From NCBI GenBank assembly GCA_900315065.1, contig OMXQ01000014.1, positions 1-39,538 on the forward strand: a stretch of 39,538 nt of DNA, read 5' to 3'. Source of the stretch: an uncultured Erysipelotrichaceae bacterium (lineage in GTDB: Bacteria; Bacillota_I; Bacilli_A; Erysipelotrichales; Erysipelotrichaceae). A program made the translations under genes and the position numbers. A model generated the notes under the pieces. The model had not been told where the DNA came from. It saw only the letters and a list, made by a program, of their open reading frames with translations, and ran no database searches. Positions 9,201-37,305 of this stretch are shown here, piece after piece (position 1 is the first letter of the stretch; each line of letters opens with the position of its first letter).

Positions 9201-10533
9201 TGATAAGGATGCAGAGTACACCTATCAGGCAGTCATTGTCCGTCCTGATGGAACGTATGAGTATCGTGATATTGATATGAATGGCGATGAAACAACTCAT
9301 ATGGTTCAGAACCTTGAAGCTGACAGGAAGTACACAGTTGTTGAAACCACTGCACCGGATGGTTACTACTGGACGGCAGACGGTGATGTCAACGCTACTG
9401 GAACAGAAGATCGTGTGACAACCATGACAGACAATTCTATTAACTATCAGATTGCAAAAGTCGATGATAATGGTGATTATGTCAAGGGTGTGACATTGCA
9501 GCTTACGGATGTAACAGACAAGGATAATCCGGTTGCTGTTGAGCTTCCGAATAATGGTGTTACAACGGATGAACCATTCCTGCTTGAGAATAAGCTGATT
9601 GCAGATCATAAGTATGAACTGGTTGAATCCGAGTATGTAGCTGGCCTCTATCAGGCAGCATCCATGACATTTACTGTTCCTCACAGCGGCACATCTGAAG
9701 TGACTACAATCACGATGAAGGATGTATTGACCAATGTTGCCGTTACCAAGGTAGACAACCATGGTAAGCCTGTTTCTGGTGCAAAGATGTCCGTTCTGAA
9801 AGCTGAAAAGGATGATGATGGAAACATCGTTCCGGTTACTGATGAGCGTGGAAATGTTGAGTCTGTCTATGACTTTACTTCTACAGATGAATACACAGAT
9901 ATCTCTGATTATGTCAAAGGCTCCAATGATGTATCAGGTGATGTGTGGTATATCCTGAGAGAAGATGAGGCACCGTTTGGCTTTGAAAAGACAGATGACA
10001 TTCCGTTTATCGTAAGTGGAACAAATGATCAGCATCAGGTGATCATGGCTACCGATGTCCGCAAGACTTATGCGGTCAGCGCAGTCAAGGTTGATGCAAA
10101 CGATGAGAACAAGCATCTCAAGGGTGCAGAAATTACACTGTTTGACGCAGAAGGAAACATTGTGAAGGATATCAACGGTAAGGAATGCGTTGGTGTAACA
10201 GATGGAACAGGCGTTATCACGTGGCAGATTGAGTACAACGGAGATGGTACTGTTGATACTGGCTACTATGTAAAAGAAACGGCTGCTCCAAAGGGTTATC
10301 GCATTAACAAGAATAACTTTGCAGTCATGCTTTCTGAGGACTATGACTTTGCAAAGGATAACCCGGTCATCATTACTGTGAGCGATACATTGCTGCCGGC
10401 AAGAGGTGTGCAGACCGGCTATGGCAGCAGTATCTTCCCGTATGAAATTGCTGGAATGATTGCAGGTCTAGCAGCGATCATCTGCCTTGTATTACGTGAT
10501 GAAAAGAAGCGTCTGAGAAACAAAAAAGATTAA
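3271..10533 (+). CDS. Giant Cna_B/SpaA-type repeat surface adhesin
   Basis: This 2420-residue protein is probably exported and wall-bound. It has an N-terminal signal peptide (residues 1 to about 30, core LTAFLLAVGTMAGSI), a unique head (about 35-270) and a long stalk of Cna_B/SpaA-like beta domains. The first module is at about 271-360, with larger variants to about 1335. A compact tandem array of 86-90-residue modules follows (1431-1865), then more divergent modules to about 2370. Modules carry the hallmark Lys near the start (KVD) and an E-T-x-A-P-x-G-Y motif whose Glu catalyses intramolecular isopeptide bonds in this fold. The C-terminus has LPARGVQTG, a hydrophobic span and KKRLRNKKD, a sortase-type signal that departs from LPxTG. 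Many ICEs carry such proteins as contact factors for mating. No sortase gene is in the window. A terminator follows at 10548. Confidence 0.88.
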   Translation: MKIPKTLRKLTAFLLAVGTMAGSIQMPVIAEDSSNSVIGKEIPDNAVAVNVTGEGSVVVEQNGKETSVTGFTLFTGNEGDEITIKASENDSGQKMTAMAVFMDDGTSFNANENHDSSAEYTAKIGTDRYINVLFERKQLVRRMAASYTPSDAAIPSSGSGTLWATAPSMFDNQFTLQWISAPLDRFADTIKQYLGECTHHGWLAWTDDNPYNVKSLNYTYSFVGDDTTKYLTITVADDTTHTGYSAAAGGTAGYQGIQWTNIPITIVIPTKTIHVDVNKVNGNPTITENNDCYSLGGATYGIWLDSALTNKIGEVTTDTSGKASIDIPNIDNGVNTVYVKEITPSKGFYIDETKYTVNLNNNSGSVTSTETPGNDPLTITLSKIAEDGQWLTQDLPAPLKDAQFTVKYYAVNPDNYTTAGSVSSLTPTRTWVLKTLPNSRGEFTARLLNDYLVKEKSDELYLDEDNNPCIPLGVVTVQETEAPKGYTLENSITNVKTKESITKTDGVAYFAVKQTGQYFQVQGGNEYTVSDKSVRTGHIEIQKALAYSGTALQGDIPNLTTTLKITNNNSYGAVLKDGDTVLATAAANSDFVKTDGSLYTITTDAKGYWKSPEGYMPYGTYTFTETAGPTGTDLNGKTSTTVTVDSEGQNIKLTNSEIENTAIRGTFSIKKNDLDLGTNIAQGDTNLSAKYALINRSNYTVYVDTNEDGKIDTTKEAFAPGETICDRDVQTGKKPYSFETAADGTYTWDYGDASSPNHLHGLTYGTYEIQEVEAPKNYTLNGNTSITFSIRNEDETVSRTLDPTAGQINKNVIANQPAYGQIELYKHVNQQAGSEVDDLPENGAKFLVILTSKLNSIYGGDMKKAWDALNDKNGQNIDANGNVVAAGKDVMLSEHEFSVITTGTEVDADGNTMEGYGITGNLAAGNYTVMQFTSGTAKGFTADDLKMSDEAKTVDVVVNKKTDANGYSTWTDKKSPVKLSVTNDQKIYNARILKKDARTGKLVTLNSASFKLVADSNNNGVLDADDYKYSSVSSNGDIDPTFYQEGKVKIVNGYVTMTSGGSDYNTFRTYTDNTGKVPAGTFVVDQVTTDGKTVANDKGTAPLPVQLTKGTYFILESDTPAGYLNYTDTGLKFTVNGSCYKDVTSSTEENVHENILTKIYSWWDHATSWISGTKRMQLDDDYFVTETIANNRATGKLTISKTIEAKPDGVDYSFINRDDLSGIQFTLYAAEDIKDPADGSVIAKKGDVAKVMTSGSAADSFGVHTDTYTEGGRFYVNKDGSFTLKDIPLGKYTLKETAVPDGIVLSDQTWDVTLEQPKDDRKTAEFTAHYDIENYTTKTKFSKTDVSGEELPGATITILDSKGNQVKKADGTDLTWVSTDKPYYVEGLADGDYVMHETVAPEGYVLRTTDIPFTVKNDKAVQTVSMADKTYDLTKVDAGGEEVEGAKITVTDNADGKVVDTWTSDKTTHHINGLTEGHTYTLHEETAPNGYVYFTDVQITVTSDYSKNQSQTLTDKRVLVTKQDTQGETVDGAELSVYDKDGNLVDQWTTVKGEGHYVNGLHAGQSYTLKETKVPDGYVKAADITINVADDGKDQSEFFINKQVTVSKVDAGGEEVIGADMTVVDENGNVVDQWTSDGTDHKVNGLEEGKSYTIHEVTAPNGYVAATDIPFTVSGADKDGKKEDQEYTVTDKRVQMLKVDMCGTDVDGAQLSVFAKDGSMVDQWTSKAGEHHFVNGLRAGQTYTVEETIVPEGFVKAADYTFTVADDGKDQTETIVDKQVEISKEDAGGKEVEGAKLTITDKTTGQAVDQWTSGKETHYASGLEVGKTYTLTEDTAPLGYVKATSIDFTVNDDGVDQKVTMVDTIERLAKVDDKGNVLKGATLEARDEDGNVIDAWESGKHIVDLTEDQVTDLEKGNNVEFELEDGSKVTVYALVKTTTETEDDSKDSDLTAEEIKEQACKAKELRKAGKTEETPAPDKDAEYTYQAVIVRPDGTYEYRDIDMNGDETTHMVQNLEADRKYTVVETTAPDGYYWTADGDVNATGTEDRVTTMTDNSINYQIAKVDDNGDYVKGVTLQLTDVTDKDNPVAVELPNNGVTTDEPFLLENKLIADHKYELVESEYVAGLYQAASMTFTVPHSGTSEVTTITMKDVLTNVAVTKVDNHGKPVSGAKMSVLKAEKDDDGNIVPVTDERGNVESVYDFTSTDEYTDISDYVKGSNDVSGDVWYILREDEAPFGFEKTDDIPFIVSGTNDQHQVIMATDVRKTYAVSAVKVDANDENKHLKGAEITLFDAEGNIVKDINGKECVGVTDGTGVITWQIEYNGDGTVDTGYYVKETAAPKGYRINKNNFAVMLSEDYDFAKDNPVIITVSDTLLPARGVQTGYGSSIFPYEIAGMIAGLAAIICLVLRDEKKRLRNKKD
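7561..8865 (+). repeat. Five tandem Cna_B modules with alternating A/B subtypes
   Basis: Modules begin at 7561 (87 residues), 7822 (86), 8080 (90), 8350 (86) and 8608 (86). The first, third and fifth share D-A-G-G-(E/K)-E-V and TAP-x-GY. The second and fourth share DGA-x-LSV, VP-x-G-(Y/F)-VKAAD and VADDGKDQ. This alternation suggests that a two-module unit of about 172 residues was duplicated, not single modules. Confidence 0.8.
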
Positions 10534-10547
10534 CACGAATCGTGTTG

Positions 10548-10573
10548 GCACTTCCTGAAACGGAAGTGCTTTT
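10548..10573 (+). terminator. Rho-independent terminator after the adhesin
   Basis: GCACTTCC (10548-10555) and GGAAGTGC (10562-10569) form a perfect 8-bp stem with loop TGAAAC, followed by TTTT. A smaller palindrome, AACACGA A TCGTGTT, sits just before it at 10532-10546. Confidence 0.75.
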
Positions 10574-10643
10574 CATATGGTCAATAAAGACCGCCGAAAC
10601 AATAGACAGCAGATATCAATGCTGCAGAAAGGAAAAGCAGAAT

Positions 10644-10997
10644 ATGTGGAACAATTCGGTAATTTTGGCAGGCTATCTGGTCAGAAAGCCAGAAGTAAAG
10701 ACGGTGACGATAACTGGCGAAACGGAAAAAAGGAACGTCTGTAATTTTGTGATTGGCGTGAATACCGGTCATGATGAAGGATCCTTTTTCAAATGTGCTG
10801 CCTGGGGCAGAACAGCTGACTATGTTGCAAAGTATGGTGACAAGGGATCCTTTATCACAGTGGAAGGTGAATTAAAGGCACATTCCTATCAGAAGGATGA
10901 TATCCAGGTAACATCCTACGACATCCAGGTGAAAACCTGTCATGTGGCTGCAGTGTCAACCAGAGGAAAGACAAATGTTAATGAGCATGGAGAATGA
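10644..10997 (+). CDS. ssb: Single-stranded DNA-binding protein
   Basis: This 117-residue OB-fold protein of the SSB family coats single-stranded DNA. The start ATG at 10644 is preceded by AGAAAGGA (10626-10633), and the product opens WNNSVILAGYLVRKPEV, the typical first strand. The core FFKCAAWGRTADYVAKYGDKG matches the conserved F-x-x-(V/C)-x-(A/W)-(F/W)G.. A-(D/E)-Y-(V/L)-x-K..KG region of bacterial SSBs. It is shorter than chromosomal SSB (about 160-180) and lacks the acidic D-D-x-I-P-F tail that recruits partner proteins, ending instead in KTNVNEHGE. This is common for element-encoded versions, which protect the incoming transfer strand. It is the first gene of a run of tightly spaced genes that continues to about 19.7 kb. 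Confidence 0.88.
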   Translation: MWNNSVILAGYLVRKPEVKTVTITGETEKRNVCNFVIGVNTGHDEGSFFKCAAWGRTADYVAKYGDKGSFITVEGELKAHSYQKDDIQVTSYDIQVKTCHVAAVSTRGKTNVNEHGE

Positions 10998-11020
10998 TGG
11001 TTGCAGAAAAGGAGATGTCT

Positions 11021-12373
11021 ATGCCAGAAAACTCCTCATTTCTTAAGATTGCATTTCCTTTTGATCCGGCACATTCTGCTTCACTGGAACACCTGATCTG
11101 GAATTATGGAGCAGGGCAGGCAGTACTTTACTGTCAGCGCACGGTTGATGAACAGGTACATCCTTTAACGAAGGTTGATGCACATGCAATGCGCTTGTTT
11201 CCTATACAGCTGATTGAACGTATTGACAATCTGACCCGCAATCAGTATCAATTGGAATCATTGGAAGCGTTTCTTTCCAGAGTTTATCAAGAGGATGCTT
11301 CATTATCACGGGCAGGAAAAAGCATTCTCAGAATGCCGACGTCAGGCATTACAGACCTTGTCTTAATGAATACTGTCTGTAAGCAGTTAGGAAGCAATGC
11401 GTTTGTAATTCCATCTACTGAATATGGGACATTGATTGTTTCAGATCAGAATGACTTTCGTGATGTTGAGCGGATGATGCTGAAGCTGAATGAACGTCGA
11501 TCCGATGGATTTAGAATTGATCCTCTGCGCTGCTTTCACTTTACTGGTGGATATCGCGATTCTCCAGAAACAGGATTTGAAGATGCGCATGTATGGTGGA
11601 CCGATCCATCCTTGTTTTATCCTTCGAATGAGGATGCTATTCCTGTCAGAATAAAGGATCTGTATTTTCAGCGAGATCTGATGATAATCCGTTTTAGAAA
11701 TACGGATAGTGAGTTTCAGAACTTTGTATCACAATTCATTCATGCTCTTAGTGATGGATTAAAAGAGAACTGCCCGGATATTAAGCTCGTTCCTGATCTG
11801 CACTTCTCAGATGCCGACGAATATTCGGGAACTGTGCAGTCTGGTACATGGATGCTGAATGTATACGATAAGAATCTGACACCATTTTTCCGGTTGGATC
11901 TGGACAATGCTTGCAGTGAGGTGTGGAAAGGACATAACAGCCTTGTTGATACCATGGTGAAGAAGTATGTAAGAGATATAGCACGTGAGTTTGAAGCAGT
12001 AAAAGAGAAGCCAGTTCCTCATTTGGAATGGACTCCGGAAATGGAAAGCTTTGCAGATCAGTTTCTGGATGCTGTCAGTGAGCTTTTGCCTGATTATTCA
12101 TTGGAATCTGGAGTGCATGAAGTAAGAGAACATGATGATCTGCATTTTGAAGCGTGGATCAGGAATACAGACGGATCTGATGAGGTCCGTTTTAATTTTT
12201 CCGAAATGTTTAAAGATGCAGCTGATGACGCTCATAAGAAGGAAAATGGCTTTGAAATTGATAAGGCACTTATTTCCAGACTTGCAAGCAGAGCCAGTGA
12301 TATTGCTGCAGTGGAATTTGATCGTGGTTCAAGCAGGGTATCACAGGTACTGACACATGGAAATCGTAGGTAA
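11021..12373 (+). CDS. DUF5688-like protein, long paralogue
   Basis: This 450-residue cytoplasmic protein has no signal peptide or membrane span. I prefer the ATG at 11021 over 10994 for two reasons. AAAAGGAG (11007-11014) fits it at 6-nt spacing, and the resulting start (MPENSSFLKIAFPFDP) aligns with the next gene's MDTDNTYLKIALPIHG. Residues about 100-165 contain LGSNAFVIPSTEYGTLIVSD, equivalent to the LGSD..IPSSIHEVI signature of DUF5688 proteins that are common on Bacillota mobile elements. Two further segments (about 230-330 and 335-435) resemble each other and look like an internal duplication. No function is known. Its place directly after ssb suggests a role around establishment of incoming DNA, which is inference. 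Confidence 0.65.
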   Translation: MPENSSFLKIAFPFDPAHSASLEHLIWNYGAGQAVLYCQRTVDEQVHPLTKVDAHAMRLFPIQLIERIDNLTRNQYQLESLEAFLSRVYQEDASLSRAGKSILRMPTSGITDLVLMNTVCKQLGSNAFVIPSTEYGTLIVSDQNDFRDVERMMLKLNERRSDGFRIDPLRCFHFTGGYRDSPETGFEDAHVWWTDPSLFYPSNEDAIPVRIKDLYFQRDLMIIRFRNTDSEFQNFVSQFIHALSDGLKENCPDIKLVPDLHFSDADEYSGTVQSGTWMLNVYDKNLTPFFRLDLDNACSEVWKGHNSLVDTMVKKYVRDIAREFEAVKEKPVPHLEWTPEMESFADQFLDAVSELLPDYSLESGVHEVREHDDLHFEAWIRNTDGSDEVRFNFSEMFKDAADDAHKKENGFEIDKALISRLASRASDIAAVEFDRGSSRVSQVLTHGNRR

Positions 12374-12411
12374 GTTTCGGCCGATATTGAACGAAAAAGA
12401 AAGGGAATGGT

Positions 12412-12954
12412 ATGGATACAGATAACACATATTTAAAGATTGCTCTTCCTATACATGGACATGAAGAAGAATTGAAGGGTAAGGTATACAGGCAATATGC
12501 AGATCTCGCTATTGCATACTGTCATACTACTTCAAATGGCAGCCCGCAGATTCTTACGGTTAATGAAGTGGTTAAAGAAGGCAAAACAGCTGACAGCGTG
12601 ATGGCACAGTGCGATGCAGCAACACACGACGATTTTTCACTGGTCCCATTGATTGAGGCTGCAGGACTGGGAAAGGAAAATGGCAGACCGGAAGAACTGG
12701 TACTTCATAGAGCAAATGAAGGCCCATATGGGGCTGCAGGTATCTCTGACAGAGCATGGATGGATAAGGCATGTGATCTGCTCGGATCTGATGTGATGGT
12801 TATTCCTTCCAGTATTCATGAGGTCATAATCATGCCGGATACCTTGGTGAGCGTGCAGGATATCAATACAATTATCAAAGCTGTGAATAAAGAGGTTGAA
12901 CCGGAAGATAGACTATCAGAGCATTGTTACCACTACAGCAAAGATACAGGTTAA
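12412..12954 (+). CDS. DUF5688 protein, N-terminal part of a split gene
   Basis: This 180-residue product carries the DUF5688 signature LGSDVMVIPSSIHEVIIMPD (residues about 124-143) and the following D.. V..EVEPEDRLSEHCYHYS region. It is a paralogue of the upstream 450-residue protein. The frame stops at a TAA (12952-12954) just after HYSKDTG, but it continues without frameshift (FEDGLAWQ..) into the next open frame. The upstream paralogue reads through the same place (FHFTGGYRDSPETGFEDAHV). The stop therefore splits the gene at the domain end, either by a recent nonsense mutation or because the two halves now work as separate proteins. AAGGG precedes the ATG. Confidence 0.7.
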   Translation: MDTDNTYLKIALPIHGHEEELKGKVYRQYADLAIAYCHTTSNGSPQILTVNEVVKEGKTADSVMAQCDAATHDDFSLVPLIEAAGLGKENGRPEELVLHRANEGPYGAAGISDRAWMDKACDLLGSDVMVIPSSIHEVIIMPDTLVSVQDINTIIKAVNKEVEPEDRLSEHCYHYSKDTG

Positions 12955-12990
12955 TTTGAAGATGGCCTTGCATGGCAGTTTAAGAAAGCA

Positions 12991-13569
12991 ATGCAAACCA
13001 GAAACTATCAAAGCAACGATATGCTGAGTGACAGCCGTTCTGTTTATCTTGCGGTGAAGAACGATGATACAGCAGATCTGACATCCAAAGTTCATGAGGC
13101 TGCAAATGGTAGCAAGAACAATAAGGATTCCTTACGTATCAGCAGTATTTACAGGTCCGTGATAGATGAAATGAAAACCAGAGAGCAGAATACTCTGGTG
13201 GCAGAACGAAAATGGCATTTCTGGCCAAAGGATACGAAGTTTGAAGACTTCGCAGATACATTTGTTAATGAAGTAATGGGAAAGCTGATTGATGAAGGAT
13301 ATTCACCAGAAAGCGGATTATATTATGACGGTGTAGAAGATCCACCTGTTTGGAAAGCAATGATCTATGACATCTTTACCCCGGCAGATATACGATTTGA
13401 TCTGACAGATGCGTATAAGAAATGCAAGGCCGGAGCAAGCGTTTATGACCTTGCAGGGACTGCTGCAGAGAAGTCTATTGATGTTTTCGAAGCCAATCAT
13501 TCTCCGCGAATTCTTTCGGCAGAGAAACAAATGCAGCAGGATTTTTCAATGCCTGGAAAGCATCGTTAA
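12991..13569 (+). pseudogene. C-terminal part of the split DUF5688 paralogue
   Basis: This segment is in the same frame as the preceding gene and separated from it only by one TAA and 12 sense codons. It could be translated as a 192-residue protein from ATG 12991, but that start has only a weak AAGAAAG site. Its C-terminal half (KFEDFADTFVNEVMGKLIDE .. GYSPESGLYYDGVEDPP) aligns with residues about 340-440 of the long paralogue (MESFADQFLDAVSELLPDYS..). I read it as the detached second half of a once 385-residue protein. The open frame is otherwise intact, so the split is recent or still tolerated. Confidence 0.6.
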
Positions 13570-14553: not shown

Positions 14554-14769
14554 ATGAAGATGTATGAACTGCAGAATTTGATGGAAGAAGCACTTGCAGA
14601 TATGACGGATGAAGAAAGAAATGAGTTTTTTAAGGATCCGGATCGTGATCAGGAGGTGACTCCAGAACAACTGAAAACAATGGCTGCAGGATTGGAAAAA
14701 GACAGTCATGGAAACAGCACAGAGATCCTGACAGTGATGCTTGAAAGGAGCACGGTTGAGAATGGATGA
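14554..14769 (+). CDS. Small acidic protein overlapping the ArdC fusion gene
   Basis: This 71-residue, strongly acidic helical protein (LMEEALADMTDEERNEFFKD near its start) is preceded by AAGGAG. Its stop overlaps the start of the next gene by 8 nt (ATGGATGA), so the two are almost certainly translationally coupled. Small acidic proteins are sometimes DNA mimics or inhibitors carried by mobile elements, but no specific family is recognised here. Coupling to an ArdC-containing protein makes an antirestriction-related role possible. Confidence 0.6.
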   Translation: MKMYELQNLMEEALADMTDEERNEFFKDPDRDQEVTPEQLKTMAAGLEKDSHGNSTEILTVMLERSTVENG

Positions 14770-17116
14770 TTCCAATTCGCTGAATGAAGTAAAGGTGCGG
14801 CTGAAACTTGAGCCTGGTGAAAAGCTGCTGTCCAATACGCAGATGAGTACACCGGAGGATGCAGTCAGAGTGATGCAGAAATATCTGTATAATCTGGATC
14901 GGGAATACTGTACCGTTGTCAATCTGGATATAGGTTTAAAGCCAATCTCTTTCAGCATTGCTGCCATTGGAGATATCGATCAGGCAGTTGTCCCGATCCG
15001 AAATCTGTTTAAAACGGCAATCCTTCAGAATGCTTCCTCCATTATGATGTTTCATAATCATCCTTCAGGTGATGTGCATCCTTCAGATGCCGATTTTCAA
15101 CTTACGCAAAGGGTGGCTCAATGCGGGAAGCTGATGAATATCCCTCTGCTGGATCACATTATTATCGGATCCCAGTCCGGATACGGATATTCCTTTCAAT
15201 CAAACACAGATATCATTTCACACCCTGAAAGATATCTGGACGGAAATTTTGCGAAGTTTATCATAAACAGCCATACAGGAGAACGGTCGGCAGTATATCA
15301 GGCAGTTCCATTCAGCGAACAGGTGGAACTGTCACTGGAGAACAAGATGGACAGAACCAGCAGTCTTGTTGTTTTGAAACATACTCCTGAACTGCTTCAG
15401 AAGCTTGGCTGTCGTGATCTGCCAATCTGCTATACGCAGAAACATCTTCAGGATGCTATGCACCCGAATGAGCCAGAATATCAAAATGAACATACCAGCC
15501 ATTATCATGGCCTGTCAGAAGAAATGATCAAGAAGTTACCGGATCTGATTAAAGATCCGGCTTTTATTTTCGATTCACTGTCTAAGGATGATTCACTTGT
15601 TTTAGGCACGGATCAGGTTGATGACGAGAATCATCCGATCGTTGTTTTAATCAGGCCAAATGGCCAGGCGAGTTACTTAGGCGAAGATTATCCCTCAAAT
15701 TTTGTCACCAGTATGTATCCCCATGATCATCTGAATTATCATCTGCAGCAGGCAGTTGAGGAGGGTAAGCTTCTCTATATCAACAGGAAAAAGAGTCAGA
15801 AACTAGCAGACAAAACAAGATTTCAAGTGCTCATGAGTTTATCGGATACAGTGCCAGTTGGACTGATACACCAAAGTCAGAATCTCTCCAGACCTGTTAA
15901 TGTCGCCAGTCAGCTGGCAGCAGATGTACGGGAGAACCGTTCTTCTTACTCCTCCAGAAATATCAAATCAGCAAAAGAACAGATTACAGAATATCGGAAG
16001 CAAATCGGGGAGCAATTCATCCGGCTCATGGATAAAGATAATCCTGTAGACTGCTTCTCATGGGTAAAACAGTGGCATACGGTCAGCGGTCCGGATGCAG
16101 GGCCGATATCTATGACAACAGGAAAGCCATACCGGGGATCCAACGCATTTGTTTTGAGCATGACTGCCCTGATGAAAGGGTATCAGGATCCCCGATGGAC
16201 TACCTTTTCTCAGCTGTCCAGAGTGAGCCCCAAGGCGCATGTCAACAAAGGTGAGCATGGTACAACCATACAGCGGTGGCTAGTATCAGATCTGACAAAG
16301 AAGAAAGGCGAAAAGGGTAAGTTTATTGATTTTCCAGAGATGGCCAGACTGATCAGAGATGAGGGGCGAAAGTCTGAGGAGTTCAGAGCTTTTCCAAAGT
16401 TCTATTCGGTGTTTAATGCTGAGCAGTGTTCAGGCATCCCACCTTTGAAGCGTGAGAAGCATGAGGCAATTAATCAGGATGAATACGTCACAAAGATCTC
16501 CAGGAGTATGGGCGTACCGATCTATAACGATCAGTACGACAATGCTTTTTACAGGCCATCTGAAGATGCGATACACCTGCCAAACAGAGATCTCTTTATT
16601 TCAGAATATGCTTATAACGCTGTAGCTCTTCATGAGCTTGGCCACAGCAGCGGGGCGGCAAACCGTCTGAACCGCAGCAGTCTTACAAATACGGATGGAT
16701 TTGGCGGAGAAACATATGCGTTTGAGGAACTGGTGGCAGAGATGACATCAGCTTTTACTTCTGTTGCTTTAAAGCCTGATGAAGAGGGTATGAATGAGTT
16801 TATTGAGAAAACTGCAGCCAATCACTATAAATACGTAAAGTCCTGGGCTTCAGCAATCAGAAAGGATCCAAACTGCTTGGATAAAGCACTGGAACAGGCA
16901 CAGCTTGCCACTGACTTTCTGGATCTGCATGGCGGCAGACTTTCACTGAATGACTATAACCGGAAGCATGGCCTTGATAATGGCGTCTTTATCAATGCAT
17001 CCGGTGATATTCAGGTCATGAGCGAGAAACAGCTTGCTTCAGCAAACAACGTAGCAGAATCAGTCAATGAAATCAGGAATTTCAATACTCTGCATGGAAG
17101 GTCCAGAGGAAGATGA
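14762..17116 (+). CDS. RadC/JAMM - PBECR3-like nuclease - ArdC metallopeptidase fusion
   Basis: This 785-residue protein has three recognisable parts. Residues about 25-150 form a RadC/MPN domain with a JAMM-type motif: H98, H100, P101-S-G-D104, P107-S108 and D111, followed by LLDHIIIGSQSGYGYSFQ. Residues about 200-345 (start LVVLKHTPELLQKLG; then HYHGLSEEMIKKLP, D-x-x-x-x-PIVVLI and LLYINRKKSQ) resemble PBECR3, a Barnase/EndoU/ColicinE5-RelE-like domain seen in phage polyvalent proteins. Residues about 400-770 match ArdC: an N-terminal ssDNA-binding part (GKPYRGSNAFVLSM, KGEHGTTIQRW) and a zinc peptidase core with HELGH (624-628) and E656/E660. ArdC proteins protect entering plasmid DNA from restriction. 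The ATG at 14762 is preferred: AAAGGAG lies 11 nt upstream and it overlaps the preceding stop. Confidence 0.8.
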   Translation: MDDSNSLNEVKVRLKLEPGEKLLSNTQMSTPEDAVRVMQKYLYNLDREYCTVVNLDIGLKPISFSIAAIGDIDQAVVPIRNLFKTAILQNASSIMMFHNHPSGDVHPSDADFQLTQRVAQCGKLMNIPLLDHIIIGSQSGYGYSFQSNTDIISHPERYLDGNFAKFIINSHTGERSAVYQAVPFSEQVELSLENKMDRTSSLVVLKHTPELLQKLGCRDLPICYTQKHLQDAMHPNEPEYQNEHTSHYHGLSEEMIKKLPDLIKDPAFIFDSLSKDDSLVLGTDQVDDENHPIVVLIRPNGQASYLGEDYPSNFVTSMYPHDHLNYHLQQAVEEGKLLYINRKKSQKLADKTRFQVLMSLSDTVPVGLIHQSQNLSRPVNVASQLAADVRENRSSYSSRNIKSAKEQITEYRKQIGEQFIRLMDKDNPVDCFSWVKQWHTVSGPDAGPISMTTGKPYRGSNAFVLSMTALMKGYQDPRWTTFSQLSRVSPKAHVNKGEHGTTIQRWLVSDLTKKKGEKGKFIDFPEMARLIRDEGRKSEEFRAFPKFYSVFNAEQCSGIPPLKREKHEAINQDEYVTKISRSMGVPIYNDQYDNAFYRPSEDAIHLPNRDLFISEYAYNAVALHELGHSSGAANRLNRSSLTNTDGFGGETYAFEELVAEMTSAFTSVALKPDEEGMNEFIEKTAANHYKYVKSWASAIRKDPNCLDKALEQAQLATDFLDLHGGRLSLNDYNRKHGLDNGVFINASGDIQVMSEKQLASANNVAESVNEIRNFNTLHGRSRGR

Positions 17117-18377: not shown

Positions 18378-18544
18378 GTCTCTCTTGATTATCGGCTTAC
18401 TGAAATCTTCATATGATGATTTCTAGCCTTTAAGTGCTCAGGAAAAAATGAACTTTAAAGGGGATCTAATGCTCTTGCTTAGGCTGTTTACTCGTATTAT
18501 CAGATCTATTGACTGAGAATAATACAGAAATGAAGGTGATAATC

Positions 18545-19684
18545 GTGGCAGATTACCTTTCTGAAGTGAAAACACGTGGTTTGAATTCTGCCCAGATGAC
18601 AGAGGTGTATGAAGGCTTAAAGAAACTTACAACGGATCAGGTAGATCTGTATGCAAAGCCAGAATATGACAATATGCAGATGCAGGAGATACGGCTTGGT
18701 CTGGAGCATGGCCTTACTCCTGATCAAATGGCAGTATTCATGAATCCTGAGATCTCATGGGAGGCAATGAACCATAACCGGGAAAAGATAGAAAATGCAA
18801 ATGTTATTGATAAGAGAGCAAAGGCGAAGCTTCATGCACAGTGGCTGCACATTATGTTTATTGCCCTTTTGATCATTACCCTGATAGGCACTGCTTCGGT
18901 CGGTGCCTATCTTTTTCATCAGTATCAGATGCTGCAGAATCAGAATCTGACACTGATACTGACTGCTGATGAGGTGACACTGGATTATGGAGCAGCATTC
19001 AACCCGATTGATTATGTGCAAGATTACACCAAAGAGGATGGCGTTGAGCTGATTCTTCCGGATGTGATTGATACACATCAGATTGGAAAGACAGAAGTGT
19101 TGTACAAAATCAAAAATTGGATAAAAACTGGAACTGCTGTTCTGGCTGTCAATGTGATAGATCAATCTCCACCGGATGTTACTCTGTCAACCCATGAAGT
19201 TACGCTGACAAGAGGACAGGATACCTTTTCTGGTAAAGCATACTTATCATCTGCAGCAGACAACGCTGATGGTGACCTGACGGATAGTGTGATATGGAAT
19301 GATCCGGACGAAAGTCTGAATGATCAGGATATTACCTATTCAGTCACCGATTCCTCTGGAAATACCGGCACAGCTGTATTGACTCTTCATTATAAAGACC
19401 CAGATCCTGTGCCCGAACCAGAAAAGATTATTGTCTATCAAAACTCGGGAGAATCTAATTCTGGCAGTACTCAGTCATCATTCAGTAGTTCTACAGATTC
19501 TTCCGGATCTGCAGCTCAGCAAAGTCAAACTCATGGTAGTCAGGATTTCATGTTTTCCGATGGTTATAACATGGACAGTGCTTATCAGGCCTGCATTGCT
19601 GCAGGAAGTGCAGTAGGAACGTATCAGTGCACTCCAATTTCGGATGGAGACGGGATCTATACAGGTTATCAGCTTACTTATTAG
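18545..19684 (+). CDS. Single-pass membrane protein with Ig-like extracellular domains
   Basis: This is a 379-residue protein. I prefer the GTG at 18545: AAGGTGA (18533-18539) is correctly spaced, while the upstream TTG (18509) and ATG (18530) have no good site. Residues 1-95 are cytoplasmic and helical, with three short repeats of the type ..EVYEGLKKL../..EIRLGLEHGLTPDQM... One transmembrane span (about 100-122) follows. The outside part has two bacterial Ig-like modules (about 135-205 and 208-290; the second has D-N-A-D-G-D-L-T and S-V-T-D-S-S-G-N-T). A Ser-rich linker leads to a C-terminal tail of about 40 residues that includes two cysteines. It precedes the pilin gene directly and may be a structural surface part of the transfer apparatus. 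A terminator follows. Confidence 0.65.
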   Translation: MADYLSEVKTRGLNSAQMTEVYEGLKKLTTDQVDLYAKPEYDNMQMQEIRLGLEHGLTPDQMAVFMNPEISWEAMNHNREKIENANVIDKRAKAKLHAQWLHIMFIALLIITLIGTASVGAYLFHQYQMLQNQNLTLILTADEVTLDYGAAFNPIDYVQDYTKEDGVELILPDVIDTHQIGKTEVLYKIKNWIKTGTAVLAVNVIDQSPPDVTLSTHEVTLTRGQDTFSGKAYLSSAADNADGDLTDSVIWNDPDESLNDQDITYSVTDSSGNTGTAVLTLHYKDPDPVPEPEKIIVYQNSGESNSGSTQSSFSSSTDSSGSAAQQSQTHGSQDFMFSDGYNMDSAYQACIAAGSAVGTYQCTPISDGDGIYTGYQLTY

Positions 19685-24053: not shown

Positions 24054-24392
24054 ATGGATGATTATGGACTGCGCTTTAATGCGCCGAAAAACTTTAAGAA
24101 TGGCCGGCTGATCGGAAACAGATACCGGATCATTGATCTAGTAATTGTGCTGACAGGAGCGTCTCTGTCAGCACTTTCTTTGATTTTGTACATCAGCGTC
24201 CTGCATGGCCACAGCCTGCCGGCAGTGGTGACAATGTTTATCCCTGGTGCACTCTGCTATGTGATTACACTGGCAACTGGTGGAGTATATCACAACAATA
24301 TGGTGCTTCTGCAGGTGCTGATCCGGTTTGCCAAAGCAAGGAAGAACTATCTCTGGGAGGGGATCTATAAAGAAGACAATGAGAAAGAATAG
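24054..24392 (+). CDS. PrgI-family (VirB3-like) conjugation protein
   Basis: This 112-residue protein begins MDDYGLRFNAPKNFKN, with two closely spaced transmembrane spans (about 27-48 and 53-72) and a short basic tail. That size and topology, and its position immediately before the VirB4 ATPase, are those of PrgI-family proteins, the VirB3 equivalents of Gram-positive type IV secretion systems. AGAAAGGA precedes the ATG at 24054, which I prefer over the ATG at 24036 that lies at the edge of the terminator T-run. The last codons overlap the VirB4 start by 14 nt. Confidence 0.78.
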   Translation: MDDYGLRFNAPKNFKNGRLIGNRYRIIDLVIVLTGASLSALSLILYISVLHGHSLPAVVTMFIPGALCYVITLATGGVYHNNMVLLQVLIRFAKARKNYLWEGIYKEDNEKE

Positions 24393-26967
24393 AAGAATGA
24401 CGCACATTGAAAAGTGTGAGAAACGTGAGCTTGATGTGGCAAAGAAGAATGCTGCCAGAATGCGCAAAAAAGTTTCTACAACGCTTCGATGGATGGATAT
24501 TAAGCAAGTGACCGAAGACAGCGTAATCGTTGCCAGAAACGGCTCTAAAGCGGTAATAAAGGGTATAAAGCTTACACCGAACAATATCTTTATCGATCAG
24601 ACAGCCGAACAGAGACAGTTTGTGGAAGGCATCCGGCTCTGTCTGAATTCTGCTCCAAGCACTATCTGGTTTGAGTTTGTGCAGTCACCAGTCAATGTAG
24701 ACCACTGGGTAAATGATCTGAGGGAAGAACGGGATAATGAATCTGATTCGGCCTGCAGAAAGATGATTGCAGCAGATATGGATAAATATTCTGATTTCTC
24801 AAAGACTCACAGAGAAAAAGAATTCTTTGTTTTGATCCGCAATGAGAATGAAAAGATCTTGGAGAAGGATTATGCAGATCTTTTCCGCCTCTGGAATAAT
24901 GCGGGATTTTCACCAAAGCAGTTGAACCGGAGAGATTACTATTCACTGATCTCTTTTTATTTTGAAAACAGTCTGATCAATGATTACGTTTTTTCACGCG
25001 GCTTGTTTTCGTATCTGAACGCAAAGATGGAATACAGTGCAGCGGACGATGCCTATAAAGAGATTGATACAACAGAGATGTTCACCGCCTGGGGTGACCC
25101 GATCGTTAATGTGAAGCCATCTGCCAACATGATTGAGAAATCAAAGCTTGCTCCAACTGGATTGAAGGTTCTCCCAAAATACATGATGATAGGAGATAAG
25201 TACATTGAGAATATCTTGGTTACCTCACTTCCGCCATTGTATGCCCTTGGACTGCTGTGTGAGTTCCTCAATGATCCTTCCATCAAGCTGTATGTCAAAC
25301 TTCAGAAGTCAGATCTGAATATGCAGAAGATCCTGACCAAAGATATCAATGACAAGAAGCGCAGATATGATAAGACACATGATGAAACGGAAAAAAGAAA
25401 GATCCTGACGGAACTGGAAAGCCAGCAGGAATATATCAATGAAGTGATCAATCTCAATGATCGGACACACAATCTGACCATTATCTTCCAGATTTCCGCT
25501 GATGATCCAACAGAACTAAAGGATGAGCGTGACAAGCTGAAAGCAAGACTGAAGGTAAGAGGATTCTCTGTGACTGATGGTTTGCTGCTACAGGAACAGT
25601 TGTTTAAGATTGCCACACCGCTTTTTCTCACGTCAGGCATGAATTCCACCATCGAGGAAAACATCGGCGTCCCTTTGACTTCTGAGGGCGTTGCCGGGCT
25701 GTATCCCTGGGTCTATGAGACACTGAACGATCCCAAAGGATTTCTCTTTGGCGAAGAACTGCAGAATCACGGTAAGATCATCTTTGATGTGTTTTATTAC
25801 CTGAACGAACCAAAGCAGGCTAGATATGCCAACCGACTGAATGGCAACATGATTGTGACTGGTGCTGCCGGATCCGGAAAGACAACTGCCATGTCTTTGA
25901 TCATCCGCCAGATGATTAAGAATAAAGTCATGACTATCTGGATAGACCCTGAAAATAAAAACGAGCAGTTGACAAGAAAGTATGGAGGCACCTATATCAG
26001 CTGGGGACAGAAAGAGAATCGGATCAATGTGTTTGACCTGAAGCCGATCAGCAGTGATGATGATAGTGAAGATCAGAGCAGAATGTGGGATACAGAACTG
26101 GCAGTGAATTACGTGATTGAGGACGTTGGCAATGTCCTCAAATTTTTATTTCCGGCTCTTTCAGAAGATGCTTTGTCATTTGTCGGTATGCTGGTCAAAA
26201 AAAGTTATGCCAAAGTTGGAATCTGTCCGGATGCGTCTGGCAGCTGGGCTTCCTTCCGATCCAAGACCTATGAAGATATGCCAACCTTTTCTACTTTTGA
26301 TCAGGTGCTTTCAGAAGAGATCGAAAGAAGAAAGGAGCTGGCAGGTGAGGAGGAGAATCTCAGATATCTCAATGAACTGAAGCGGAAGATGCAGCGTGTG
26401 TTGAATGAATGGAGCGAGTATCTGAATGGCTATACAACAATCCGGCTTAATCCAAGTGGCAGAATGATTGTGTCATTTGGTACAAAGAAGCTGTTTGATT
26501 CTTCTGAAGAGCTGCAAAACGCTTTGTACTACATCATGTTCGGCTACAGCTGGACTCTTTGCCTGGATGACTCGTACAAGTCAGCTTTTGTGGTCGATGA
26601 AGCACATGCTCTGATTCACAGAGGCAATACTTCCCGATTGCTTTCACAGTTTGTCAGACGTTCCAGAAAATATAAGAACGTCATGGTAATTGGAACGCAG
26701 GAGCCGCATGACTTTGCCGACAGCCGGATCATCACTGATGGCAAAGCTATTTTTAATAACTCTGCTTACAAGATTGTCCTGGGAATGAACCATGATGCTA
26801 CCAACGATCTGAACAAGCTGGAGTCCATTAACGAGAATGAAGCCTACTGGATAGAAAACTTCGGCCAGGGTGATGCCCTGATGATCATTGGCGGCCAGAG
26901 AAGAATTACAATTCACGTCACGCCTACCAGGAATGAACTTGCTGAGATGGGTGCAATGTTTCTATGA
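24379..26967 (+). CDS. VirB4-family type IV secretion ATPase
   Basis: This 862-residue cytoplasmic or membrane-associated ATPase powers the type IV secretion channel. It has an N-terminal VirB4/TraC-like region (about 1-430), a Walker A GAAGSGKTT (starting at residue 495) and a Walker B FVVDEAH (D740, E741). Sequence after the P-loop (WIDPENKNEQLTRKYGGTYI) is typical of the family. Length fits VirB4 of Bacillota ICEs (about 800-880). The ATG at 24379 lies inside the end of prgI and gives the expected tight coupling; the longer upstream frame lies wholly within prgI. Its last four bases (ATGA) start the wall hydrolase gene. Confidence 0.93.
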   Translation: MRKNRRMTHIEKCEKRELDVAKKNAARMRKKVSTTLRWMDIKQVTEDSVIVARNGSKAVIKGIKLTPNNIFIDQTAEQRQFVEGIRLCLNSAPSTIWFEFVQSPVNVDHWVNDLREERDNESDSACRKMIAADMDKYSDFSKTHREKEFFVLIRNENEKILEKDYADLFRLWNNAGFSPKQLNRRDYYSLISFYFENSLINDYVFSRGLFSYLNAKMEYSAADDAYKEIDTTEMFTAWGDPIVNVKPSANMIEKSKLAPTGLKVLPKYMMIGDKYIENILVTSLPPLYALGLLCEFLNDPSIKLYVKLQKSDLNMQKILTKDINDKKRRYDKTHDETEKRKILTELESQQEYINEVINLNDRTHNLTIIFQISADDPTELKDERDKLKARLKVRGFSVTDGLLLQEQLFKIATPLFLTSGMNSTIEENIGVPLTSEGVAGLYPWVYETLNDPKGFLFGEELQNHGKIIFDVFYYLNEPKQARYANRLNGNMIVTGAAGSGKTTAMSLIIRQMIKNKVMTIWIDPENKNEQLTRKYGGTYISWGQKENRINVFDLKPISSDDDSEDQSRMWDTELAVNYVIEDVGNVLKFLFPALSEDALSFVGMLVKKSYAKVGICPDASGSWASFRSKTYEDMPTFSTFDQVLSEEIERRKELAGEEENLRYLNELKRKMQRVLNEWSEYLNGYTTIRLNPSGRMIVSFGTKKLFDSSEELQNALYYIMFGYSWTLCLDDSYKSAFVVDEAHALIHRGNTSRLLSQFVRRSRKYKNVMVIGTQEPHDFADSRIITDGKAIFNNSAYKIVLGMNHDATNDLNKLESINENEAYWIENFGQGDALMIIGGQRRITIHVTPTRNELAEMGAMFL

Positions 26968-28962: not shown

Positions 28963-30603
28963 ATGGCACATGCTGAGATAATTGTGGATGCTGCATTTCT
29001 CCAGTATGGACAGCATGCGCCATCCAATTCAGGTTTTAAAGGTATGGTAATTACCTCATCGCTGTTTGGAGGATTTGTTAAATATACCAGCCGCAAAAAC
29101 GCGACAAAGGATTCTGTTTATGATGGGGATAATGTTTCGAGCCAGGAACAGAAGAATCAGAAAAATGATGAAACTAATGGATCCTTTGTCGGGTATACAT
29201 CACGTGGTCATGCAACAGAACACTCGTCACAGCAGGGCAAATATTTCACAATGACAAATGATGGCAAAATCTATACAGAGGAAGAAAGAAAAGCATGGAT
29301 TAAACGGTCCATGTCTTCATTTTCCAAACCGGGAGATCTGGCATGGACAGTTGTTGTTTCGCTGGATAACTATGATCTGCTGCAGGATTATGGCCTAAAT
29401 GATCAGAATGATTTTTCACGCCTGACGCAGCAGTGCCTGTATAAATCATTCAAGGAGATGCATCTGGATCCAGCAAATATGATCTGGTGGGAAGACTACC
29501 ATACCAATACAAAACATCCCCACATGCATATTACGTTTCTGGAAAAAGAACATCGACGTGACAGAGGAAAGTTTACCGGTAAAGAAATTACTGCACTGAA
29601 GCGTGTCTTCATTTCTCAGATATCAGCCAGAAAGAAATACATGGAGATGTATGGAAGAAATGCAGATGATGATCTGCAAAGAATATCGCCGCTGCGGCAG
29701 GGTGTCATAAAGAGAGCCGAAACTTTGAATTACCAAACCATTGAAAGCATTGCCAGCCTGTATACACAGCTTCCTGATAATGGAAGACTGCAGTACAACT
29801 CATCCATGATGATTCCATTCCGAAAGCAGTTGGACAGCATTGTCGATGAGATCCTGAATACAGAGTCAGTCCGTGCTGACTATAAAGAATTTGTATCAAA
29901 CCTGCAACGGCTTGATCAGATAATGAATGATGCTGGAAATGAAAAAATTTCCCATATGTTTGACTCAGAAGACCATAAGCTGAGAGTGCAGATCGCGAAT
30001 GGCATCCTGCAGGAATATAAAAACTCCAAGGAGATTTTGCAGACTCTGAAGGCTAAGCAGGACGCATGGAAGACAAGTCATGGATCAGATATTGTAGCTG
30101 TGGTATTGAAAGAAACAGATGCATCTGCACTAACAGCACCACAGAAGGCTGTTGTAGAAGCACTGCAGCAGAGTGAGCTGAGTCATGCTGAAAAGCTGTC
30201 TGATCAGCTTGGTGATACTGGCTTTGATGAATTTCTGAAAGGTGTCTGCCGCTTAATGAGTGCGGATGATTCCAGAAAGAATGAAGGTCTGCAGTATCTT
30301 CACAAGGCAGAGAAGAAAGGTGTGAGGCAGGCGAGGCACATCCGTAATTATCAGAGAATGTCTTTTGGAATTCCTAAGCGTATGTACCATACAATGCAGG
30401 CGCGGATCAGTCCCAGTCTGCTTCATAGTGCCCGAAAAAGTATTAATGCAGAAACCAGAAATATCCATGAACAGCTTTCTGCATTTGCACATAATCAAAC
30501 ACGGATCATCAATTCTGAGCGAAAAGAACAGGGCGCTGAGGAGCTAGCTGAGCAGATGGAAAATATGATTAAAAGAGAGAACGGGAATGGGACTCAGGTA
30601 TGA
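28963..30603 (+). CDS. MobP/MobL-type relaxase
   Basis: This 546-residue enzyme nicks oriT and carries the strand into the recipient. Two tandem motif-I-like tyrosine segments, FVKYTSRKNATKDS (about 37-50) and FVGYTSRGHATEHS (about 75-88), are typical of MobP-group relaxases. The metal-binding triad is visible as H180..H185-P-H187-M-H189 (HTNTKHPHMHI). Residues 300-546 are helical with no helicase motifs. The reading frame is complete. It is preceded by the RHH and coiled-coil genes and followed after 35 nt by the VirD4 coupling protein. The assignment to MobP versus the related MobL/MobP3 group needs a profile search. Confidence 0.85.
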   Translation: MAHAEIIVDAAFLQYGQHAPSNSGFKGMVITSSLFGGFVKYTSRKNATKDSVYDGDNVSSQEQKNQKNDETNGSFVGYTSRGHATEHSSQQGKYFTMTNDGKIYTEEERKAWIKRSMSSFSKPGDLAWTVVVSLDNYDLLQDYGLNDQNDFSRLTQQCLYKSFKEMHLDPANMIWWEDYHTNTKHPHMHITFLEKEHRRDRGKFTGKEITALKRVFISQISARKKYMEMYGRNADDDLQRISPLRQGVIKRAETLNYQTIESIASLYTQLPDNGRLQYNSSMMIPFRKQLDSIVDEILNTESVRADYKEFVSNLQRLDQIMNDAGNEKISHMFDSEDHKLRVQIANGILQEYKNSKEILQTLKAKQDAWKTSHGSDIVAVVLKETDASALTAPQKAVVEALQQSELSHAEKLSDQLGDTGFDEFLKGVCRLMSADDSRKNEGLQYLHKAEKKGVRQARHIRNYQRMSFGIPKRMYHTMQARISPSLLHSARKSINAETRNIHEQLSAFAHNQTRIINSERKEQGAEELAEQMENMIKRENGNGTQV

Positions 30604-30638: not shown

Positions 30639-33350
30639 ATGAAGAAGTTTCTGCTGTTGATCGGCAGCGTTTTTTATATTGTGATCTGTTATTTCCTGGC
30701 AATGCAGCTGGCATACTACTTGTCGTTTAACAAAAATCTGGTGGCAATGCAGGCTGCTAACCGGATCTGCTTTGACTATCGGATCATGTGGTGGCAGGGC
30801 AATAATAACTACTTTAAGCTGGCTACAATCGTCATCCTTACCAGCTACATCGTGATGGTACTGTCTCTTTTGATGCCTTCCAGCAGCCGGAAAAGCAGAG
30901 CTGCAAAACGTGGACTCACAAAGGATGAGAAGGCACAATACAGCCATCTGGCATCTCGTCATGAAGCAAAGAAAGGTCTGCAGCGCTTCCAGTTCAATGC
31001 ACAAGCTGAAAACGATGATCTTTATAATTCCTTCAGTAAACCCATGCATCATATGGAATTCATCATCGGAAATATCCTGGTTATTGTGCAGCTGATGGCT
31101 ATTGTTCTGCTGGTATTGGATCTGATTGAGATGCTGATAAAGCTTGCTAAACCGGAATTCCATATAGCAGCCAATACGATGCCATGGTTAGTTTATAGTG
31201 AGATCATTGGTGGCTGTGCAGGAGCATTTACTTTGATCTGCAGGTTTCACATCCGAGACTATTGTGACCTGGTCTTTAACCCATTCAAACATAAGTGGAA
31301 TCAATGGATTACGATTACCAAGCAACCTGACAGCCGGAAATTCAATGAATTGCATTATCAGAAAATCAATGATGTTCCAGACTGCAGAAGAGCTGGTCTG
31401 CCTATCATCACGAGCAGAAGAAAGATCTGGGTGGAACCAGGTGATAATCACTCTCTGATTGTAGGCACTACAAATTCCGGTAAGACATTCAGTACAATCA
31501 TGATTTTCATCATGACAGTGCTCATGGCAAATACTTCTGCTTTTATCAATGACATTAAAGGCGAGCTTACGCCAATGTTTGCCCCGATGTTTAAGATGAA
31601 GGGGTACAACGTTATCGTTCTGAACTTTGTTGACTCCAATAAATCAGAATGCTGGAATCCCTTTAGCACAGTGTATCAGGAATACCGGAAGGAACAGGCC
31701 AGAACAATTGATAATCCTGATGCCTGGAAAGATAAAGCTTTGATGAAAGCCTATATGGATGCCAAAAAGGATATGATGCATCAGCTTGTCAAAACTGTTT
31801 CAGCATTTGAAGTGATCAAGCAGATGAATCCCAGAGATCCAAGCCGTGCCTTATCTATGAATGAAGCAACAGAAGCTGTAAAAAAGAAGATGCAGGTGAT
31901 CTGGAATATCGAAGACAGAGAAGACTTCCCGAGGCCGGATTTCTCCGATGCAAATATTAAGCTTGAAGATATCTGCCGGATGCTTTGTGAGGACAAGAAT
32001 GCCAAAGATGAGCACTGGTGGAAACAGGCACAGTATCTGATGGATGGACTGATTTCATTTCTGCTTGAATATGAATATCTCGATGAGAAGGATAACCTTT
32101 GCCGGCTGCCGGAAGATGCCATTTCTTTTCCTAATATTCAGGCATTGCGGACAGACGGATTTACACCGGTTGATATCGATGGAACAAACCGCATTTTCCT
32201 GATCCAATGGTGGATCAGCATGACAAAGCGTTCAGTTGACCGTTCGGCAGAGAAGCTTAATCCAATCTGCTATATGGGAGCTGAGGAGCGAGGATCTGTT
32301 ATGTCAACTTTTGCCGATAAAATGCAGATTGGGATGATCAGTGAACGGGTAAAGCAGATGACTTCCAGAACCACCTTTTCCTTCCATGATATCTTTGTTA
32401 GGAAGACTGCAGTTTTCATGATTGTAAATGATGAGAAGAAGCTGTTCCATCCGTTTGTTTCGATCTTCGTATCACAACTGTATCAGGAGATGGTGGATTT
32501 TTCTAGAAACTATCCGAAGCAGCGACTGCCGATTCCTTTTGATATTATCTGGGATGAGTTTGGCATTTCTCCAGCAGTAGGTGATATTAATTCAAAGCTT
32601 GCAGCATCAAGGTATCGCGGCGTACGCTGGCACTTTGTTATTCAGGAATATTCGCAGTTGGATCAGACGTATGGAAAAGAGGAAGCCAGAACAATTAAAG
32701 GCAATATCATGAATACAGTTTATCTGCTAGCAGAGACACCTTCTACTCTAAAGGAAATATCTGAGCGGGCAGGGCAGCAGAAAGTGTGGAACAAAGAGAA
32801 GCAATGTTTTGATACTATCCCGGTCATTACTCCAGACCGGCTCCAGCATTTGTCCATGTCTGAGGCACTGATACTGCGACAGCGAAAGATGCCATATCTT
32901 ACGAGGTATCTTGCATTTGACAGATATGTCTTTGCAAAAGCATTAAAGAAATCGAATGATAGTCCATATTATCAGGCAGACAGAAACGGTAGACCAATCT
33001 CAAAGTTGCAGAGATATACAGAATTCAGTTTGATGGCTGATTATGAAAGAATGAGGAATCCTCAGCATAGTAGTGAACGGAATTGCGAGGTTGAAATGCA
33101 TCAAGTAGAAGAGAACCCATCACCAGTTGATGTTCTGCAAGGTGCACTTGATCATAAAACAGAATATGATCCCGAAACTGGTGAAATGATAGAGAAAGCA
33201 ATTTCTGAAGAAGCAAATGGAATGCCGAATATAAATGACAAAGATAGCCGTAAGAAATCAAAGAAGTGTTTTAAAGCAAAAGGATCTGTAAGGAATTCGC
33301 GATCATGTGATCTTCCAAATAGTGAGATTGATATTGAAGAAGATCTTTGA
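30639..33350 (+). CDS. VirD4/TraG-type coupling ATPase
   Basis: This 903-residue membrane ATPase brings the relaxosome to the channel. It has N-terminal transmembrane spans (about 3-28, 66-86, 143-170 and 190-212), a Walker A GTTNSGKT (276-283) and a Walker B IIWDEFG (D639, E640). The FINDIKGEL segment after the P-loop and the GVRWHFVIQEYSQLDQ region late in the ATPase domain are typical of VirD4/TraG proteins. The C-terminal 150 residues are hydrophilic and may select substrates. AAGGATGG precedes the ATG. It is the last gene of the recognisable transfer operon. Confidence 0.92.
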   Translation: MKKFLLLIGSVFYIVICYFLAMQLAYYLSFNKNLVAMQAANRICFDYRIMWWQGNNNYFKLATIVILTSYIVMVLSLLMPSSSRKSRAAKRGLTKDEKAQYSHLASRHEAKKGLQRFQFNAQAENDDLYNSFSKPMHHMEFIIGNILVIVQLMAIVLLVLDLIEMLIKLAKPEFHIAANTMPWLVYSEIIGGCAGAFTLICRFHIRDYCDLVFNPFKHKWNQWITITKQPDSRKFNELHYQKINDVPDCRRAGLPIITSRRKIWVEPGDNHSLIVGTTNSGKTFSTIMIFIMTVLMANTSAFINDIKGELTPMFAPMFKMKGYNVIVLNFVDSNKSECWNPFSTVYQEYRKEQARTIDNPDAWKDKALMKAYMDAKKDMMHQLVKTVSAFEVIKQMNPRDPSRALSMNEATEAVKKKMQVIWNIEDREDFPRPDFSDANIKLEDICRMLCEDKNAKDEHWWKQAQYLMDGLISFLLEYEYLDEKDNLCRLPEDAISFPNIQALRTDGFTPVDIDGTNRIFLIQWWISMTKRSVDRSAEKLNPICYMGAEERGSVMSTFADKMQIGMISERVKQMTSRTTFSFHDIFVRKTAVFMIVNDEKKLFHPFVSIFVSQLYQEMVDFSRNYPKQRLPIPFDIIWDEFGISPAVGDINSKLAASRYRGVRWHFVIQEYSQLDQTYGKEEARTIKGNIMNTVYLLAETPSTLKEISERAGQQKVWNKEKQCFDTIPVITPDRLQHLSMSEALILRQRKMPYLTRYLAFDRYVFAKALKKSNDSPYYQADRNGRPISKLQRYTEFSLMADYERMRNPQHSSERNCEVEMHQVEENPSPVDVLQGALDHKTEYDPETGEMIEKAISEEANGMPNINDKDSRKKSKKCFKAKGSVRNSRSCDLPNSEIDIEEDL

Positions 33351-35967: not shown

Positions 35968-36096
35968 ATGAGAAACGTTGAAGAAAGAATTCTTACCTGC
36001 AGGTTACTTCAAATGATGAAAAAGAATCCACAGCTCTCCGAAGATCTTGGATTAATCGATGAATCTACGTTCCAAGAAAGACCCGTTGAATTTTAG
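35968..36096 (+). CDS. Small 42-residue protein at the element junction
   Basis: GAGGAGG precedes this ATG at good spacing. The product starts MRNVEERILTCRLLQMMKKN and ends RPVEF; it is charged and helical, with no known function. Its TAG (36094-36096) overlaps the TAA of the truncated integrase on the other strand (36093-36095). The two genes meet exactly where the integrase loses homology to its neighbour, which marks this as a recombination junction. Its own end may have been set by that event. Confidence 0.55.
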   Translation: MRNVEERILTCRLLQMMKKNPQLSEDLGLIDESTFQERPVEF

Positions 36097-37154: not shown

Positions 37155-37244
37155 ACAAATCTTCCTTTCCTGATAATGAGTGTTCTTAAATTCACACCTT
37201 CTTTTTATCAGAAAGCACCCACTTAATCAAAGATACGGATTATG

Positions 37245-37287
37245 TAAAACAAAGAGCGAGACATCCTTGCCTCGCTCCAGCTTTGTT
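37245..37287 (-). terminator. Terminator of the complete integrase gene
   Basis: On the - strand, GAGCGAG and CTCGCTC (37254-37277) form a perfect 7-bp stem, extended by ACAAAG/CTTTGT-type flanks and followed by TTTGTTTT. It separates the two integrase genes. Confidence 0.75.
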
Positions 37288-37305
37288 TCCTACTCTTTAT
37301 AATTG

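Follow-up and report, generated by a model that had tools for sequence, protein, structure and literature searches.

A RadC–MuF_C–ArdC polyvalent protein with a predicted BECR-fold domain encoded in a conjugative element of an uncultured Erysipelotrichaceae bacterium

The window analyzed here, a stretch of 39,538 nucleotides from an uncultured Erysipelotrichaceae bacterium, contains one gene for a large multidomain protein, the fusion protein hereafter, together with a small acidic ORF directly 5' of it and the transfer region of a putative ICE (Table 1). The contig that carries the fusion gene has VirB4-, MobP-, and VirD4-like genes as well as tyrosine recombinases, and the element has a T4SS-like DNA transfer apparatus. 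An ICE setting with a transfer region, with the fusion gene 3' of a single-strand DNA-binding protein (SSB) gene, had been proposed in a preliminary description of this DNA, and the presence of these three transfer genes bears it out.

Table 1. Coordinates of the principal features in the window, with the evidence for each.
Feature	Position	Strand	Evidence or remark
Single-strand DNA-binding protein (SSB), opens the establishment cluster	10542..10997	+	PF00436 E 3.2e-15; probably shorter, beginning at an internal start
Small acidic protein, 71 aa, pI 4.2	14554..14769	+	Directly 5' of fusion gene; 8-nt overlap with fusion start
Polyvalent protein RadC–MuF_C–ArdC-N–MPTase, 784 aa	14762..17116	+	Translation, no internal stop; Pfam
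RadC-like JAB/JAMM domain, residues 29–147	14846..15202	+	PF04002 E 1.9e-33; RadC homologue 2QLC E 3.2e-17
MuF_C domain, residues 243–347, predicted PBECR/BECR fold	15488..15802	+	PF18819 E 2.5e-20; alignments; AF2 model and fold matches
ArdC N-terminal ssDNA-binding-type domain (ArdcN), residues 412–551	15995..16414	+	PF08401 E 3.5e-19
Zincin-like metallopeptidase MPTase-PolyVal, residues 578–709	16493..16888	+	PF18818 E 2.1e-26; HELGH intact
Conserved 391-aa element protein, downstream marker of cluster	18509..19684	+	40–53% identity in G126, G194, and G031 elements
VirB4-like conjugation ATPase	24328..26967	+	NF045975 5.2e-82, under its cut-off
MobP-type relaxase	28963..30603	+	NF041499 9.3e-33, under its cut-off
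VirD4-like coupling protein	30639..33350	+	NF045973 1.3e-57, under its cut-off; PF02534 1.6e-36

The fusion ORF is real and multidomain: its product contains four Pfam domains, each scoring well above the curated cut-off. The N-terminal domain is of the RadC-type JAB/JAMM kind both by profile and by its intact HxHx7SxxD site (H98-x-H100-x7-S108-x2-D111). At the other end, an ArdC-N domain is followed by a zincin domain with an intact H624-E-L-G-H628 motif and the sequence FEELVAE further on at 654–660, and both are homologous to ArdC of R388, the structures of which (6SNA and 6I89) match residues 433–725 with E about 2e-21 (6SNA 1.6e-21). PHROGs profiles assign the two ends to anti-restriction (1.5e-57) and RadC-type (1.8e-33) families and connect the middle with phrog_616 (1.8e-7), a giant phage protein family. 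PADLOC made no call on the fusion protein. The preliminary description had recognized a RadC/JAMM, nuclease-fold, and ArdC fusion with both metal sites intact, and these domains and motifs confirm it; the borders it gave (residues 1–160, 195–350, and 395–785) lie close to those of Pfam.

With several effector or nucleic-acid domains in one chain, including both ArdC-N and MPTase, the fusion protein resembles the multidomain polyvalent proteins of conjugative elements, which also combine ArdC-N, MPTase, and RadC, as described by Iyer et al. 2017 (PMC5512222). Each of its domains already figures in the catalogue given there. According to the same paper, RadC is confined to the polyvalent proteins of conjugative elements whereas PBECR RNases are mainly of phage type, and the fusion protein joins the two. 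Stand-alone ArdC of R388/pSa, a protein of about 300 residues, shares with it the ArdC-N and zincin domains, the HExxH motif, and the sequence FEEL(I/V)AE, but in the fusion protein RadC and MuF_C come first. ArdC of R388 is required in the recipient and counters HsdRMS; its N-domain binds ssDNA, and its metalloprotease site is dispensable for antirestriction (PMC7213743). The ardC gene is also a typical establishment gene of pLS20-family plasmids (PMC8708921).

The middle of the chain had been described as PBECR3-like. It scores 73 bits against the MuF_C profile (PF18819; cut-off 27.6), with E 1.4e-21 when the domain is scanned alone, and neither this domain nor its relatives matched the PBECR3 profile at E≤10. 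Together, these two results rule out the PBECR3 label, and the MuF_C match likewise rules out a plain linker in residues 195–350. A weak match to PBECR2 was returned by one phage relative (E 0.03). By Iyer et al. (PMC5512222), MuF_C is itself placed among the PBECR domains, so the earlier assignment to the PBECR/BECR group and fold stands and only the family name was wrong. The active site of PBECR domains is described there as a His plus a Ser/Thr, and the window copy agrees with this description: alignments show that phage, free-standing, and window copies all keep H249, along with S or T at the S317 position, and the equivalent of H249 is retained in nearly all MuF_C relatives that cover the site. 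The residues around the alcohol position are replaced in several relatives (TSIY, ASAY, and DTFY).

A predicted structure points in the same direction. An initial AF2 model of the middle domain built from three sequences reached a pLDDT of 60, gave no useful fold match, and was replaced by a model built from five (the window copy, two phage contigs, and two coliphage-type copies) with a pLDDT of 83.8 and a pTM of 0.81. Among viral predicted structures, the second model matched phage MuF-C proteins, the best of them with E 4.9e-10 and TMq 0.78. In the PDB, Foldseek by itself gave no confident match to it. VIA-align against solved structures returned BECR toxins or BECR-bearing proteins at ranks 1–13 (Z 5.6–3.6), led by BrnT (Z 5.6, 76 residues, 3.4 Å) and followed by a toxin-antitoxin complex, RelE, HigB, YoeB/ParE, and Cami1 at Z 4.6–3.6; unrelated structures begin at Z 2.2. 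Because all of these values are modest (Z<8), the assignment depends on the uniform identity of the top matches and not on any single Z. H249 near the N-terminal helix and S317, which the model puts in its final long strand, occupy the places expected of the His and late-strand Ser/Thr of a BECR endoRNase. Overall, the middle domain is predicted to have a BECR fold, as judged from a model with moderate Z values.

Comparison with related elements shows that MuF_C is, in this element, an additional module on a RadC-ArdC-MPTase backbone that is common to elements of the genus. Relatives in the same genus share the layout of the window, with SSB 5' and the 391-residue protein and transfer genes 3'. 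At the equivalent, post-SSB position, two elements of genome G126 encode RadC-ArdC-MPTase proteins of 585 and 573 residues, and a G194 element encodes a 682-residue protein in which a different segment of ≈150 residues lies between RadC and ArdC-MPTase. These three proteins are 42–53% identical to the fusion protein in ArdC and 37–47% in RadC; unlike the fusion protein, they have no MuF_C between the two. In the G194 element, MuF_C instead resides in a separate 627-residue protein encoded directly after SSB (L046:7487-9370, −; 2.9e-23) that has no other recognized domain, and a further G126 element likewise has a free-standing 327-residue MuF_C gene directly after SSB, with an ArdC-MPTase gene 3' of it. 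The G031 ArdC-MPTase protein (L047:4895-6838, +) begins with a hexapeptide-repeat region where the others have RadC; no SSB match was found within the stretch fetched for this element, and its ArdC-MPTase gene adjoins a second ORF of similar appearance. Relatives in Lachnospiraceae have only RadC in common with the fusion protein, followed by YodL, LPD16, and others. Since the inserts between RadC and ArdC differ among relatives, this stretch behaves as a variable slot; the four sequences compared are compatible with gain of MuF_C in the lineage of the window as well as with its loss elsewhere.

MuF_C is rare in the genomes sampled, which comprise ≈650 genomes and, in addition, a phylum sample (392); the sets, from the genus (70), order (316), class (395), and phylum, overlap. 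Among these genomes and the loci fetched, with Clostridia hardly represented, no other MuF_C shares an ORF with RadC or ArdC; Clostridia-wide ICEs are poorly covered, so the rarity applies to these samples only. The plasmid collection contained no relative of the middle domain and the phage collection gave only weak matches. No relative turned up in viral contigs when the query was the entire protein, the middle domain by itself, or one of the alignments; two further alignment queries gave two phage-type MuF_C relatives. Three viral contigs from a DNA-motif scan were rejected as MuF_C by profile. The middle domain matches a phage virion-region protein at 32–33% and shares its predicted fold, His, and alcohol residues, but the phage genes lie in virion regions whereas the window copy is ICE-borne and joined to ArdC. 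The RadC–MuF_C–ArdC architecture is found nowhere else in the samples searched, although its class and its domains are known; domain shuffling of this kind defines the class of polyvalent proteins. In G048, free-standing MuF_C proteins of ≈220 residues with a conserved N-terminus (INKNIVHE...) are encoded at L058:6044-6715 and L059:7188-7832 (−); the genes adjoin efflux/transporter or sugar-uptake genes instead of transfer genes, with no obvious mobile element.

The preliminary description had also noted that the acidic protein is coupled to the fusion gene, and indeed the two genes overlap by the 8 nucleotides ATGGATGA, with AAAGGAG ≈10 nt before the fusion ATG. The protein, which has 18 D/E against 7 K/R, gave no Pfam match above cut-off. 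Each of the two RadC-ArdC genes in G126 is directly preceded by an acidic ORF (58 and 66 residues, pI 4.1), and the 8-nt overlap recurs in the second case. Pairwise resemblance among the acidic proteins is low (26–29% identity; the window copy has shuffle fractions of 0.009 and 0.043), so the case for homology is made mainly by their position, size, charge, and common motifs. A profile made from the three also finds remnants cut down in length, one directly 5' of the G031 ArdC gene and one in a decayed G126 element, along with three further marginal matches. In the decayed copy (L120:4113-4199, −, about 1.549 Mb), the acidic ORF is reduced to 28 residues, the RadC-ArdC gene is absent, and the SSB match is divided between two frames. 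The G194 RadC-ArdC fusion has no upstream acidic ORF. The recurrence of the acidic ORF with RadC-ArdC fusions that do not contain MuF_C makes a role as a MuF_C-specific inhibitor or antitoxin unlikely; the preliminary description had suggested that the protein might inhibit or mimic DNA.

Taken as a whole, the locus is best explained, with a probability of about 0.62, by an ICE-borne polyvalent establishment protein that unites an antirestriction ArdC part with a predicted MuF_C RNase. The combination of ssDNA-binding antirestriction with a predicted RNase in one chain is likely. The fusion protein would help the element to establish itself, after synthesis in the cell just entered or after passage into it along with the DNA; the SSB/ArdC gene neighborhood suggests an early-entry gene that would act right after entry, as had been surmised. 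By analogy with ArdC of R388, ArdC-N may bind the single strand as it enters, and the DNA may be shielded from restriction by the ArdC part. MuF_C could act through H249 and S317 as a metal-independent RNase on host transcripts, tRNA, or defense RNAs such as crRNA. The deubiquitylase-fold chemistry that had been suggested for RadC is not expected, in that RadC-type JAB domains are thought unlikely to contain the ubiquitin-tail groove and action on nucleic acids has been proposed for them (PMC5512222), and RadC may therefore process nucleic acid. The chain may be split into its individual units by the metallopeptidase, and the acidic protein would be an accessory coupled to the RadC-ArdC backbone and not to MuF_C in particular.

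Other explanations can be weighed against an establishment protein with a predicted RNase. MuF_C might have no catalytic role and instead bind RNA or protein, thereby targeting or tethering the ArdC unit, as proposed for MuF-C of phage Mu, which is itself considered inactive (PMC5512222); the replacements around the alcohol site in several relatives are compatible with such a role, but retention of the His and alcohol residues in the window copy, and of the His throughout nearly all relatives that cover it, leads us to regard it as a minority possibility. The resemblance to RelE, HigB, and BrnT, together with the overlapping acidic ORF, could instead suggest a toxin used in addiction or competition, with the 71-residue protein as its antitoxin or immunity protein. 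We consider this improbable: similar acidic ORFs precede RadC-ArdC genes that have no MuF_C, the MuF_C genes of G194 and the third G126 element directly follow SSB with no acidic partner 5', and the acidic proteins resemble one another only weakly.

The acidic protein might also mimic DNA toward restriction enzymes, or inhibit or chaperone the ArdC or RadC part until it is needed. Its pI and the presence of similar ORFs beside the RadC-ArdC backbone of two further elements make this conceivable, though doubtful, given that the G194 fusion does without such an ORF and that the protein has no family match above cut-off and only 71 residues. ArdA-type DNA mimics are larger than this. Very improbable is an assembly or sequencing artefact uniting neighboring genes. 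The fusion of RadC, MuF_C, and ArdC is known from one draft genome of 144 contigs, and in a related element MuF_C sits in a neighboring gene; against this, a single stop-free frame spans four domains with borders that agree with those of the domains, and homologous fusions of RadC to ArdC occur at three other places.

The fusion protein encoded here places a phage-type effector domain inside an antirestriction protein of a conjugative element. More speculatively, and in our estimation rather unlikely, conjugative elements may plug phage-type BECR RNases into a RadC-ArdC "carrier" slot, such that the ssDNA-binding ArdC part brings the RNase to the incoming DNA and RNA-guided or transcript-dependent defenses are destroyed during entry. 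To our knowledge, no MuF-C domain has a demonstrated biochemical activity. The fusion protein, with its 784 residues encoded by one gene, is a compact case for the long-standing prediction that MuF-C/PBECR domains are RNases directed against host RNA or RNA-guided defense, and homologous proteins that do not have the MuF_C module provide natural controls.

Several other genes of the window deserve mention. Upstream of SSB lies a gene for a 2420-residue surface protein that contains nine repeats of the SpaA prealbumin-like type (3271-10533, +), shorter relatives of which are found at the equivalent place in the G126 and G031 elements. SSB itself, which occupies a corresponding relative position in the G126 and G194 elements, is followed by three ORFs (10994-13569, +) of 459, 180, and 192 residues; the 180-residue product matches DUF5688 and the others have no Pfam match. 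Within the transfer region, a 607-residue FMN_bind and FAD_binding_2 protein resembling flavocytochrome c/fumarate reductase (22163-23986, +) is encoded next to a membrane protein gene on one side and, on the other, the small gene that precedes VirB4. Two adjoining tyrosine recombinase genes (36093-38535, −) and an HTH gene (38611-38958) are likely to form an integration module.
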